A stretch of 64,000 bases of DNA from Mycobacterium kiyosense (GTDB taxonomy: Bacteria > Actinomycetota > Actinomycetes > Mycobacteriales > Mycobacteriaceae): contig AP025179.1 in NCBI GenBank assembly GCA_021654635.1, positions 1,612,001 through 1,676,000 on the forward strand, read 5' to 3'. The position numbers were made by a program, and so were the translations under genes. Position 1 is the stretch's first letter, and each line of letters opens with the position of its first letter. The notes under the pieces were generated by a model that searched no databases, was not told the DNA's origin, and saw only the letters and a list, made by a program, of their open reading frames with translations. Shown piece by piece: positions 7,829 to 20,366 of the stretch.

Positions 7829-7854
7829 CGGGAACAAACCACCGGTCGTGCGCG
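7829..7854 (+). promoter_or_regulatory. ECF-type promoter GGAAC-N17-CGAC (candidate SigC promoter), anti-sigma gene
   Basis: GGAAC at 7829-7833 and CGAC at 7851-7854 are separated by exactly 17 bases, followed by TA. The same arrangement lies before ctpB and before the PPE1 operon. The -10 element ends 12 bases before the GTG of the anti-sigma gene, so the transcript would be almost leaderless. Confidence 0.65.
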
Positions 7855-7866
7855 ACTATTAGAGAC

Positions 7867-8571
7867 GTGTACTGCGAGGTGGCCCGCGAAGCGCTCTCGG
7901 CGCGGCTGGACGGCGAACGCGAGCCGGTCCCGGCGGCGCGGGTCGACGAGCACCTCGAAGGCTGCGCCGAGTGCCGCGCCTGGTTCGAGCAGGTGCAGAC
8001 CCAGGCCGACGAGCTGAGCCGGATGCTGCAGTCGCGGCCGGTCATCGCGCCGCTCGCCCCGCTCGACCTCGGTCCGGTGCGGGCGCGGCGACGCGTCGGG
8101 CTCGGTTGGCGGCGCTGGGCGCTGCTGGGGGTCGGCGCGGCGCAGCTCGCGTTGTCCACTGTGCAGGGGCTCGGCCTCGAGCTGGGTCTGACCCACGAGC
8201 ACGGCATGGGTCCGGGCCATCATCTGCTCAACGAGTCCACGGCATGGTCGCTGGCGCTGGGCGTGGTCATGGTGGTGGCCGCGCTGTGGCCGGCGGCCGC
8301 GGCCGGTCTCGCCGGCGTCCTGACCGTGTTCGTCGGGGTGCTGGCCGTCTACGTCGTGGCCGACGCCCTGTCCGGCGCGGTCACCCTCACCCGGATCGGC
8401 ACCCACATCCCGGTGCTGCTGGGCGCGGTGCTGGCCACCCTGGTGTGGCGGCGCGACACCGCGCCGCCGCCCGACGGCGTCACCTCAGAGCCCGATATCG
8501 TGTTGCCGCCCAACGCATCTCGCGGCCGGCGTCGTGGCCACCTGTGGCCGACGGACGGCTCGGCGGCCTAG
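7867..8571 (+). CDS. Zinc-finger anti-sigma factor, Rv0093c-like membrane protein (partner of SigC)
   Basis: 234-residue protein. The cytosolic N-terminal anti-sigma zinc-binding domain has C3 and the HLEGCAECRAW motif (HxxxCxxC, about 33-43). It is followed by a membrane part with four or more hydrophobic spans between about 75 and 200 and a charged tail. It resembles Mtb Rv0093c, which sits beside ctpA. Here it is tail-to-tail with sigC (22 bp apart), so an anti-SigC role is the natural reading. GTG at 7867 was chosen because the protein begins MYCEVAREALSARLDGE, typical of the family. A histidine-rich segment (HEHGMGPGHH) between spans could sense metal; that is inference. Confidence 0.8.
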   Translation: MYCEVAREALSARLDGEREPVPAARVDEHLEGCAECRAWFEQVQTQADELSRMLQSRPVIAPLAPLDLGPVRARRRVGLGWRRWALLGVGAAQLALSTVQGLGLELGLTHEHGMGPGHHLLNESTAWSLALGVVMVVAALWPAAAAGLAGVLTVFVGVLAVYVVADALSGAVTLTRIGTHIPVLLGAVLATLVWRRDTAPPPDGVTSEPDIVLPPNASRGRRRGHLWPTDGSAA

Positions 8572-8593
8572 CTCGTCGAACCGGCCCGCCTGC

Positions 8594-9154
8594 TCAACCG
8601 ACGTCGTCGGTCGCCTGAGCCGCCTGCAGCAGATCGCTGCGGGCCCGCGCCACCCGCGACCGGATGGTGCCGATTGGGCACCCACCGACCTCGGCCGCCT
8701 CCGCATAGGACAGGCCCAGCACCTGCGTCAGCACAAAGGCCTCCCGCCGTTCGGGGTCCAGCCCGTCCAGCAGCATCCGGATCTCCACGACGTTCTCGAT
8801 CCGGCTGGCGTAGCGGCCCTGGCTCAGCACCTCATCGAGATCGCGGACCTGCGTGGTGCGGGGTCGGGCGCTGTTGTGCCGAATCTGGTCGACGACCACC
8901 CGCCGCGCGATCGACAGCAGCCAGGTCCGGGCGGTGGACCGGCCGCTGAACCGGGGCAGCGACCGGATCGCCCGCAGAAAGGTCTCCTGAGTCAGGTCGT
9001 CGGCGCTGCCCGGGTCGGCCAGGTAGGCCACAGTGCGCCAGACGTCGCGCTGGGTGGCCGCGATGAACTGCGACAGCGCGACCTGGTCGCCCCGTCCCGC
9101 AGCTTTCGCGAGCTGCGTGATCAGGTCCTCCTCGCCGACCGTGCCTGTCGCCAC
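8594..9154 (-). CDS. sigC: ECF RNA polymerase sigma factor SigC
   Basis: 186-residue ECF sigma factor. Region 2 has DVWRTVAYLADPGSADDLTQETFLRAI and region 4 has LGLSYAEAAEVGGCPIGTIRSRVARAR. Along its length it closely resembles M. tuberculosis SigC (Rv2069). In M. tuberculosis sigC lies far from Rv0093c and ctpA; here all three are neighbours. It would direct RNA polymerase to a small regulon, and published work links SigC to copper acquisition and to the nrp operon. It is divergent from ctpB with a 106-bp gap. No GGAAC-N17-CGAC element precedes sigC itself. Confidence 0.88.
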   Translation of the reverse strand: MATGTVGEEDLITQLAKAAGRGDQVALSQFIAATQRDVWRTVAYLADPGSADDLTQETFLRAIRSLPRFSGRSTARTWLLSIARRVVVDQIRHNSARPRTTQVRDLDEVLSQGRYASRIENVVEIRMLLDGLDPERREAFVLTQVLGLSYAEAAEVGGCPIGTIRSRVARARSDLLQAAQATDDVG

Positions 9155-9182
9155 GGATACTGAGGGTAGGCCATGGATGGCT

Positions 9183-17951: not shown

Positions 17952-18817
17952 GCCGCGTACCCCGGCGTCGCAAGGCCGTCCAGCATGGTCAGCCGGTGGG
18001 TGGTCAGCGTTCCCGAGGCGGTGCCGTGTTTGGCCCGGTGCATCAGAACCCGGTTGTCCCACAACACGATGTCGCCGACTTCGTAGTGCTGGGTGTGGAT
18101 GAAGGGGGACTTGTATTCGGTGTCGAGCTGGCCGGTGGCCTCCATCAGCTCCTGCAGCACCGCAGGATCGAGCGGGTCGCCGTTGCGGTCCTCGATCTTG
18201 GTGGTGCCCGAGGCGCAGATGTAGAGAATCTCTTCCCCGGTCTTGGGGTGCCGGATGATGGTCGGCCACTTGATCGGCGGTGTGGTCCGGCTGATCTCGG
18301 CCCAGACTTCGCCGATCGGCCGGTATACGTCGCTGGGTCGAATCTTGATGTGGCGCCGCGGATCATGGGTGCTGACCGTCCCGCGGACCGGCTGCTGCTT
18401 GGCCGCGGGCAGCGACTCCCATACCTGGTTGAGGTCGATGAAGTAGGTGCCGCGGTCGTGGCCGGGCACGGCCAGCGGAACCACCATGGAGAAGGCGAAC
18501 GGTTCCGGCATGAACATGTAGTCGATGTGCCAGAACGCCCCGGTCTTGGGAACGCCATGGCCTTCCTCGGTGGAGGAGACAAAGATCTCGGGATGCTGCG
18601 CGTGGTGGTACATCGGCTCGTAGTAGGGCACGATTTGTCCGACGATCCGTCCGAGCCGGATGAATTGCTCCGGGGTCGGGTGCACGTCCTTGAGGATCAC
18701 CAGCTTGTTTTGGTAGACGATGTCGCGAATCTCTTCGGTGCTGATGTCGTCCAGGTTGCTGGGATCGATACCCGTGACTTGCGCCCCGAGTCCCTTGCCT
18801 TTCACGTTGAGCGTCAT
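17948..18817 (-). CDS. Non-heme Fe(II) oxidative decarboxylase forming the isonitrile group (Rv0097/ScoE/MmaE-like)
   Basis: 289-residue member of the TauD-like Fe(II)/2-oxoglutarate superfamily. The facial triad is visible as FWHIDY (H97, D99) and a distal His in VLMHRAKHG (H260). Homologues turn the glycine adduct made by FcoT into an isonitrile acid, the metal-binding head of the lipopeptide. The start codon is the ATG at 18817. It is the second gene of the operon, 54 bp after the PPE gene and overlapping fcoT by four bases. Confidence 0.9.
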   Translation of the reverse strand: MTLNVKGKGLGAQVTGIDPSNLDDISTEEIRDIVYQNKLVILKDVHPTPEQFIRLGRIVGQIVPYYEPMYHHAQHPEIFVSSTEEGHGVPKTGAFWHIDYMFMPEPFAFSMVVPLAVPGHDRGTYFIDLNQVWESLPAAKQQPVRGTVSTHDPRRHIKIRPSDVYRPIGEVWAEISRTTPPIKWPTIIRHPKTGEEILYICASGTTKIEDRNGDPLDPAVLQELMEATGQLDTEYKSPFIHTQHYEVGDIVLWDNRVLMHRAKHGTASGTLTTHRLTMLDGLATPGYAA

Positions 18818-18871
18818 ATCGTTTTTAACTCCTCGTTTGATTCCGGTTCATCTGCGTAGCGTTTGTGGTGG

Positions 18872-20291
18872 TCAGCCGGTCCTCCTGTCCGCCGATGTCT
18901 CGTCCGGGCGCCAGCCGGCGGGCAGCAGGGGAACGGTGACATCGGTTGCCGTCGAGGATGTTTGGACAATTCCGGTGGCCTGTGCGCCCGGGGCGGGGAC
19001 GGTTCCGGCGAAACCGAGCGGGCCCGCGCCCCGATCGCTTCCGGTGGGTGCGGCAGCGGGTTGCGAGGCGGGAAGGTCGGCGGCGGCGTCGACGGTCGCG
19101 TCCAGGAATTCGTCGCGATGTCCGCGCACGCCCGCCCGGGCGCGCTGCCGGCGCCGGGCACGGACCGCAGCCTGGCTCGTCGTCGCCGCGGCGGCGGACC
19201 CGATGCGGTCGGCAACGTCGTCGGACGCTTTCGCCCCGGCCCGCGGGCCGAATCCGGTGCCCGGTGGCGCCAGGCCGGCGACGGCGTAGCTCAGCTCCGG
19301 CGGGGCGGGCGGTGTGCTCGCCGAAGCCGTGCCGGGTGTGCCGGGCGCGGAGTTACCGGCGCTGGAGCCGGGGCCCGACACAGTCGAAATACTCTGTACC
19401 ACAGCGATATTCGGACTCGGCCCGCCGTGCCCGGCGGTCCCCGCCACGGCGGGGGCCTGCAGCGGCTCGGTCACCGGGCTCACATCGAACCGATGGGTCA
19501 GCAGGCTCAGGGCGCTCAACGCGCTGAGTGCGGGCGTGAAGAAGGGCAGCAACAGCAGCGAATACGACGCGTAGTACGGGTACCAGAGCACGTCGTACAA
19601 GAACAGCGCGATGACCGCCAGCGCGATGGTGGTGGCGGGGCTGAAGCCGAATTGCTGGAAGAAATCCAGGAAATGCTGGTACGGATCGGCGATGAAGTTC
19701 GTGATGTTCTGGACCAGTTGACCGAGGCCGCCGACGAGCTGGCTCGGGTCGGCCTGCGCCTCGGCAGCCGGCTTGAGGATCTGCGGTGCGGGCTGAGCCG
19801 GCGGGCTCGCCGCGGTCGCCGCTTCGGTCACGGCCTGATACGCCGCCATGGTGTCGGCCGCCTGAACCCACATGCGGGCGTAGTCGGCCTCGTTGACCGC
19901 GATCGGGATGGTGTTGATGCCGAAGAAATTCGTGGCCACCAAGGCGCCGTGCAGCAGGTGGTTGGCGGCCAGTTCGGCCAGGGTAGGCATCGCGGCGAGC
20001 GCGCTGCCGAACGCGGTGGCGGCCGTCTGATGAGCGGCAGCCCGCAGTGCGCTGTCGGCCGCGGATTGTTCGAGCCAGGCCAGGTAGGGGGCGTGCGCCG
20101 CCGCATATGCGGCACCCGAGCTGCCCGCCCAGCTGGCGCCGTGCACCTCGGCCAGCAGGCCGCTCAACTCGGTGGCCGCCAGCGTGTACTGCATGCTGAG
20201 CTGCTGCCACTGATCGGCGGCAGCAAGCAGCGCCCCCCGGACCGTGCCCAGCGCTCAACAACGCCGAATGCACCTCCGGGGGCGACGCCAT
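18872..20291 (-). CDS. PPE1: PPE family protein, PPE1 (Rv0096)-like, frame broken once
   Basis: Cell-envelope/secreted PPE protein leading the isonitrile lipopeptide operon, as in Mtb. The first residues MASPPEVHSALLSAG are the canonical PPE start. The conserved helical domain follows (HAPYLAWLEQSAAD), then a hydrophobic region (TTIALAVIALFLYDVLWYPYY) and a Pro/Ala/Ser-rich tail. The frame breaks at the run GGGGGG (minus strand, about 20232-20237), where five G would give GPGALLAAADQWQQL. It is about 470 residues when rejoined. Function in metallophore handling is inferred from conserved gene order only. Confidence 0.83.
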
Positions 20292-20340
20292 CCAAATGGG
20301 GGCTGTCAGGACCCGACCTCACTCTCCCGTCTGCGAGGTA

Positions 20341-20366
20341 GTCGGCCCGGACGAGCAGAAAGTTCC
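20341..20366 (-). promoter_or_regulatory. ECF-type promoter GGAAC-N17-CGAC (candidate SigC promoter), PPE1 operon
   Basis: On the minus strand GGAAC (20366-20362), a 17-base spacer and CGAC (20344-20341), then TA. The -10 element ends 49 bases before the PPE1 ATG. It has the same nine fixed bases and spacing as the elements before the anti-sigma gene and ctpB. Confidence 0.65.

Follow-up and report, generated by a model that had tools for sequence, protein, structure and literature searches.

The window described here, the whole 64,000-nucleotide stretch of Mycobacterium kiyosense DNA that was analysed, carries a contiguous set of genes around sigC (8594..9154, minus strand), which encodes an extracytoplasmic function (ECF) sigma factor of 186 residues. 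The neighbouring transcription units comprise (i) rscA (7867..8571, plus strand), encoding a 234-residue anti-sigma candidate with a zf-HC2 domain of the zinc-binding anti-sigma (ZAS) type and four further modelled helices, convergent with sigC at a distance of 22 bases; (ii) a P1B copper ATPase of the CtpA/CtpB type with an HMA domain (9261..11513, plus strand), divergent from sigC; and (iii) the PPE-nrp operon, on the minus strand and convergent with the ATPase gene. This operon opens with a PPE1-like PPE gene (18872..20291) and continues with a TauD/ScoE-like isonitrile-forming oxygenase (17948..18817), an FcoT/ScoD-like thioesterase-fold protein (17391..17957), a fadD10-like acyl-activating enzyme (15800..17365) and nrp, a nonribosomal peptide synthetase (NRPS) with a reductase (11466..15685); the PPE and nrp frames are interrupted in the assembly, at 20291-20194 and near 12.0-12.8 kb, respectively. 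Each of the three units is preceded by a putative SigC-type promoter, GGAAC followed by 17 bases and CGACT, at 7831..7857 (plus strand, continued by AT) before rscA, at 9183..9209 (plus strand) before the ATPase gene and at 20340..20366 (minus strand) before the operon.

The sigC product passes the NCBIfam SigC equivalog model NF007231 narrowly (226.4 bits, cut-off 219), its best match among solved structures being the Mycobacterium tuberculosis sigma-C chain 2o7g, with 2o8x covering region 4. The copper ATPase scores 496.2 against a cut-off of 397 for TIGR01511. Within the isonitrile operon, the oxygenase exceeds the NCBIfam cut-off of the ScoE model (487.4 bits, cut-off 400) and the ScoD-type protein matches its own model below the cut-off (121.4 bits, cut-off 250); the AMP-binding, FcoT, TauD, NRPS and reductase domains are found, and all the gene kinds of a chalkophore cluster are present. 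The RscA sequence is closest, among named species, to that of Mycobacterium vicinigordonae (88% identity).

The ten-base pattern occurs three times in the window, and dinucleotide shuffles of the same sequence give 0.15 expected matches, with three or more in none of 100 shuffles; the three 17-base spacers differ in sequence. The clustered three-site pattern is real. A preliminary description of the locus had placed the first site at 7829-7854 and counted nine fixed bases, a count that holds if the final T is dropped; its leaders of 49 and 52 bases are correct when counted from CGAC to the ATG of the PPE gene (20291) and of the ATPase gene (9261), and the SSSAAT-N16-20-CGT consensus that it gives for M. 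tuberculosis SigC has no match in the 150 nt before rscA, the ATPase gene, the PPE gene or sigC. A further nine-base match, lacking the final T, lies at 41647-41672 on the plus strand.

Enrichment of the motif across the genome was considered and is rejected. In the 6.35-Mb genome to which the window belongs, the ten-base form occurs 17 times against 35 for a reversed-pattern control, and the nine-base form GGAAC-N17-CGAC 107 times against 137, so that the signal is local and clustered. The genome-wide rate predicts 0.034 sites per 12.5 kb and gives a probability of about 6e-6 for three or more, in a stretch that was picked after the pattern had been seen. A mechanical test places 12 of the 14 sites outside the cluster within open reading frames (ORFs), a weak criterion since it also flags the rscA site, through an antisense ORF, and the ATPase site, through an upstream-extended form of the ATPase ORF. 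When the 17 sites are instead searched for an ORF opening downstream, by the rule applied to the relatives, only two qualify. These are the rscA site and L001 (G000:C1:853700-853726), an exact ten-base match outside the window that is followed after 72 nt by an ORF of 334 residues and is a possible fourth SigC target. The ORF at the ATPase site has an alternative opening 176 nt upstream, and none is assigned to the PPE site under this rule because the PPE frame is interrupted.

Comparison with the same loci in relatives bears out the pattern. The best 80 SigC loci among 452 actinobacterial relatives (1.49 Mb, both strands scanned) contain GGAAC-N17-CGAC 266 times, compared with a mean of 32 and a maximum of 56 for the 15 other spacers between 10 and 25 bases. 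At the same spacing, the controls reach 22 with CGTC, 19 with CGAT, 9 with a reversed −35 element and 61 with CAGC, whose row displays a period-3 ripple (58-61). Genomes without sigC served as a negative control. The closest copper ATPases were sought in 42 of the 53 sigC-less genomes within a sample of 148 genomes of the genus, where the best match is at most 57% identical except in G073 (72%); G028 holds an additional 209-residue ATPase piece at 64% identity. Among the 30 best of these loci, the motif is absent beside the ATPase in 29, and the same 29 loci, with that of G073 left out, contain GGAAC-N17-CGAC four times in all. In the exception, G073 (L169, L170), the 72%-identical ATPase has a SigC-type site together with rscA, and no sigC was found.

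A tree of 92 SigC proteins, from which a fragment (L091) and two broken sigC genes (L165 and L167) were dropped and from which a filter for internal stops or lengths below 140 residues removed no further row, provides the frame for comparing individual genes. The window SigC falls in clade A (43 rows, support 95/84) and the M. tuberculosis SigC chain, represented by one domain of 101 residues, in clade B (25 rows, support 100/99); the two are members of sister clades and not strict orthologues. Upstream of the ATPase gene, an N17 site lies within 250 nt in 43 of 46 loci (clade A 38/39, basal 3/3, outer 2/4), with spacers of 10 and 12 bases seen once each, 14 bases three times and 25 bases twice. 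All 24 loci that could be judged for the PPE match, 16 of the scan and 8 added afterwards, carry an N17 site within 400 nt upstream of that match; a further locus is too short. For rscA, 35 of the 65 loci have an N17 site within 60 nt of the gene, and no spacer other than 17 occurs there in the range from 8 to 26 bases; by clade, the site is present in 21/34 loci of A, 0/14 of B, 0/3 of the basal group (a Mycobacteroides, a Williamsia and a Gordonia) and 14/14 of the outer clade, which comprises Nocardia, Micromonospora and allied genera (20 loci, 14 with rscA in reach); the fragment L091 is left out of the clade tally. The TauD gene has an N17 site in 7 of 14 loci, and an N16 site in two more. 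Of 24 clade B loci, 19 have the site pointing away from rscA-sigC, and a PPE match is present in 14 of those 19; a SigC-type site precedes PPE genes beside both clades. The −35 and −10 elements are hence kept at one fixed spacing at orthologous genes, the rigid-spacer behaviour of ECF promoters, and GGAAC-N17-CGAC(T) is, as judged from these comparisons, the promoter predicted to be recognised by SigC-family ECF sigma factors. Spacer specificity, conservation and the lack of the motif at 29 of the 30 ATPase loci examined in sigC-less genomes support a SigC-type promoter at all three units, in line with the earlier prediction that SigC controls its anti-sigma gene, a copper pump and the metallophore operon.

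The same search extends to sigC itself and to other genes. Upstream of sigC, an N17 site is found in 8 of 77 loci; the exact motif is present in 0/39 clade A, 0/15 clade B (mycobacteria) and 0/4 basal loci, which makes autoregulation of sigC improbable in mycobacteria, and for those examined in clades A and B it is rejected. The eight sites belong to the outer clade (8/19 loci), all in Micromonospora (L068, L072, L077, L081-L083, L087 and L089), and suggest that sigC may be autoregulated there. Clustering of the 185 ORFs that follow N17 sites yields ATPases (43 loci), RscA (28), DUF5134 (18) and PepSY-TM (16) proteins, and next PPE, TauD, MFS, ABC-ATPase and further, smaller clusters; the names rest on one or two members of each cluster, scanned against Pfam. 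SigC-type sites stand before genes for DUF5134, PepSY-TM and CtaG-type membrane proteins at L058:4486-5175, L029:3712-4308, L026:917-2470 and L078:7162-9054, the DUF5134 protein of L029 being rich in His and Met at its start. Genes of these three kinds are candidate copper-acquisition genes.

The rscA promoter displays an architecture of its own. In the window, nine bases separate CGACT from the GTG start codon and the first G of GGAAC lies 36 bases before it; in 31 of the 35 positive loci this distance is 35 bases, with 34, 36, 36 and 41 in the others. From this fixed distance and the short interval before GTG, a leaderless, SigC-dependent rscA transcript is predicted; M. tuberculosis has many leaderless genes (PMC3898074). 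A second signal overlaps the first. With the start codon as +1, A(-11)/T(-7), the geometry of a SigA-type −10 element, is present at 64 of 76 rscA starts, or 68 of 76 when a one-base shift is allowed, against a background of 2.5%; the window rscA fits only with the shift. Upstream on the same strand, a gene that looks TetR-like by inspection (6795-7823) ends 7 bases before the rscA promoter, and read-through from it into rscA is possible.

This second signal underlies an alternative that confines SigC control to the ATPase and PPE-nrp promoters and takes the rscA site for a leaderless SigA promoter with a −10 element that resembles CGACT by chance. The A(-11)/T(-7) pair is kept in 38 of the 41 starts without a SigC site (40 with the one-base shift), compared with 26 of the 35 with one (28 with the shift), so that SigA-type transcription would be the constant feature. 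However, GGAAC is placed exactly 17 bases from CGAC in more than half of the loci and at no other spacing, and it is there in every outer-clade locus with rscA in reach, where SigA would need no such −35 element. The alternative is unlikely, and its SigA component is compatible with SigC control if the two form a dual promoter; the rscA upstream region is read as a SigC promoter laid over a basal SigA-type leaderless one.

According to a second alternative, a SigM-, SigE- or SigH-type factor reads the pattern as a generic ECF promoter, with sigC a mere neighbour. GGAAC-like −35 elements are known for SigM and SigE. SigH uses GGAAYA with GTT (PMC6411747), and overexpression of SigM raised rv0098-rv0100 (PMC7924339). 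The −10 element found here is CGAC, however, and GGAAC-N17-CGTC gives no peak in the same loci; the site is absent beside 29 of the 30 ATPases examined from sigC-less genomes and present before PPE genes beside both SigC clades, and PMC7924339 cites reports of SigC chromatin immunoprecipitation and in vitro transcription at ctpB. A generic promoter of this kind is accordingly rated as improbable. That chance or an ancestral duplication brought three similar sites together, which might be argued from the 17 occurrences in the genome, many of them within ORFs, and from the choice of the region after the pattern was seen, is very improbable, since the three spacers differ and dozens of species have sites before the corresponding genes.

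The partnership between SigC and RscA is supported by their distribution over the 148 genomes. Matches to sigC are bimodal, with 95 genomes at E 1e-54 or better and 2.2e-18 as the best value elsewhere; rscA is present in 96 genomes, and 94 of the 95 sigC genomes have both (Fisher P 4e-36, kinship ignored). The sole sigC genome lacking rscA is G125, which is 63% complete, and rscA occurs without sigC in G073 and G090; rscA matches at E 2e-4 to 1e-3 (G028, G053, G106 and G132) were counted as absent and the partial ones of G082 and G090 as present. FcoT, taken as a marker of the isonitrile operon, is found in 34 genomes, all with sigC. In addition, RscA and SigC follow each other in one open frame of 451 residues in a clade B locus (L074:9185-10540), and many other clade B matches lie within open frames of similar or greater length, which suggests the same fusion; a fusion of Rv0093c with sigC is described for the M. 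avium complex (PMC7563442). The anti-sigma assignment is supported by the zf-HC2 domain (PF13490, 40.8 bits against 22.2), by a match of the RscA profile to the anti-sigma factor RsiW (E 1.8e-4) and by the ZAS motif residues H29, C33 and C36, invariant in 33 sequences. RscA would bind SigC, and the SigC promoter on its gene, the co-occurrence, the fusion and the leprosy-type genomes described below make it a strong candidate for an anti-SigC factor, a protein that a 2021 account described as still to be identified.

Taken together, these observations outline a circuit in which SigC would drive (i) the PPE-nrp isonitrile operon for copper scavenging, (ii) the P1B copper ATPase, and (iii) rscA, the gene of its own anti-sigma factor. 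By way of the zinc-binding anti-sigma domain on its cytoplasmic side, RscA would tether SigC to the membrane and release it when copper becomes scarce outside the membrane; RNA polymerase carrying the freed SigC would then fire the three promoters, and newly made RscA, translated from a leaderless transcript that SigC drives in addition to a basal SigA-type −10 element, would shut the response off. The circuit, including the promoter code, the control of operon, ATPase and rscA by SigC, and the feedback through RscA, is considered highly probable on this comparative evidence.

The two SigC clades add a further layer. One genome, G142, carries one SigC of each clade. In the leprosy-type genomes G074 and G114, rscA-A, the ATPase and PPE-nrp matches are kept, sigC-A contains internal stops (L165 and L167), and an open, unfused sigC-B lies elsewhere in the genome, no second rscA being found; the PPE site is preserved and the exact rscA and ATPase sites are not. 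This gene content fits a cross-pairing of RscA-A with SigC-B. The putative rscA is far from sigC in M. tuberculosis and one gene away in M. marinum (PMC6917791), a separation that cross-pairing would explain, the case of M. tuberculosis being an extrapolation: the best match to its SigC stretch among 396 genomes is 87%, and no genome of the M. tuberculosis complex is taken to be in the sample.

A sensory role for RscA is suggested by its second half. Residues C3, H29, C33 and C36 of the ZAS domain and Q100, H119, E123, D166 and R176 are invariant in 33 RscA sequences, with H180 kept in at least 90%. The structural model (predicted local distance difference test, pLDDT, 80.8; predicted template modelling score, pTM, 0.55) places four helices at 81-101, 118-140, 142-168 and 181-198, and Q100, H119, E123, D166, R176 and H180 at or near helix ends; should the helices span the membrane with the N-terminus in the cytoplasm, these residues would share one membrane face. 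We propose that Gln100, His119, Glu123, Asp166, Arg176 and His180 form a copper-sensing site, in which the conserved His, Glu and Asp residues near the membrane may bind copper. Combined with the clades, the proposal becomes a wider one: RscA would be both the anti-SigC factor and the sensor of copper starvation, a four-helix membrane protein with an outer-face Gln/His/Glu/Asp/His copper site; mycobacteria would have evolved two SigC paralogues that share one promoter code, SigC-A working with a free, feedback-controlled RscA and SigC-B with a fused one; some lineages, among them the leprosy bacilli and probably M. tuberculosis, would have lost sigC-A and the B-type RscA, leaving an orphan RscA-A to control SigC-B from elsewhere in the genome. 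As a whole, this wider proposal is tentative and somewhat doubtful.

Several observations weigh against the circuit or its extension. The PPE (20194-20291) and nrp (about 12017-12764) frames are interrupted in the window assembly, through either an assembly error or decay of the operon; relatives examined, for example L040 for nrp and L024 for PPE, keep them open. The exact rscA site is missing in 13 of 34 clade A, all 14 clade B and all 3 basal genes, so that feedback on rscA is not universal, and a basal SigA-type −10 element or read-through from the TetR-like gene could drive rscA independently of SigC. The exact ten-base motif also stands where it might act as a promoter at L001, outside the window. 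For M. tuberculosis, loss of function in a sigC mutant had no significant effect on ctpB when copper was low in the medium (PMC7924339). The copper site is deduced from conservation and a model of moderate confidence, and four further predicted helices are unusual for an anti-sigma factor that is proteolysed.

With regard to known systems, the closest is the SigC regulon of M. tuberculosis (PMC7924339 and PMC9147137), which involves the same sigma family, the same kinds of targets and near-identical predicted promoters. There, SigC raises ctpB and ppe1-nrp, with SigC elements at both called "almost identical" and attributed to Rodrigue 2007 (PMC7924339); a sigC mutant lags without copper, SigC being needed at copper scarcity, and ctpB is induced by a chelator. 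The predictions for the copper ATPase and the metallophore operon are therefore not new. The window differs in that its SigC belongs to clade A and not B, that rscA, sigC, the ATPase gene and the operon are contiguous, and that rscA carries the same promoter. Accounts of a putative rscA or anti-SigC factor (PMC6917791 and PMC7563442) likewise describe a membrane protein with an anti-sigma signature, assigned by position or fusion, and propose, in the portions available, no promoter, partner test or sensor; co-occurrence, the SigC-type leaderless promoter and the conserved polar residues are added here. On the chalkophore operon, PPE1-5'/PdtaR control (PMC8131098) acts at the RNA level, and Rip1 contributes a positive signal at the level of transcription that does not depend on the four Rip1-controlled sigma pathways known at the time (same source). 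It is speculated that RscA-SigC, an obvious candidate, lies behind the Rip1 signal, though a four-helix protein would be an unusual protease substrate. RscA shares the N-terminal HxxxCxxC domain with ZAS anti-sigma factors of the RsiW type, which its profile matches, and differs by the four further helices with conserved His, Glu and Asp and by the convergent arrangement of rscA and the sigma gene in the window. ZAS factors such as RsiW and RskA have one transmembrane helix and a sensor domain.

In the literature text covered, most subscription journals lying outside that coverage, neither a SigC promoter on rscA nor two sigC clades are described. The SigC-type promoter on rscA appears to be new, and the anti-sigma feedback promoter, the depth of the promoter code, the sigC-rscA partnership and the division of SigC into two clades are new as far as searched. 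In 2021, the sensing of copper starvation by M. tuberculosis was described as an open question and an anti-SigC factor as still missing (PMC7924339). The rscA promoter, the near-perfect co-occurrence and the natural fusion now provide a named anti-SigC candidate and a testable feedback circuit. The fixed GGAAC-N17-CGAC code makes it possible to pick out candidate SigC targets by sequence in Nocardia, Micromonospora and other genera, and it points to candidate genes for copper acquisition, including those for DUF5134, PepSY-TM, CtaG and other proteins. Finally, the split into clades A and B would explain why the anti-sigma and sigma genes are separated in some species, and warns against transferring results between species by the name of sigC alone.

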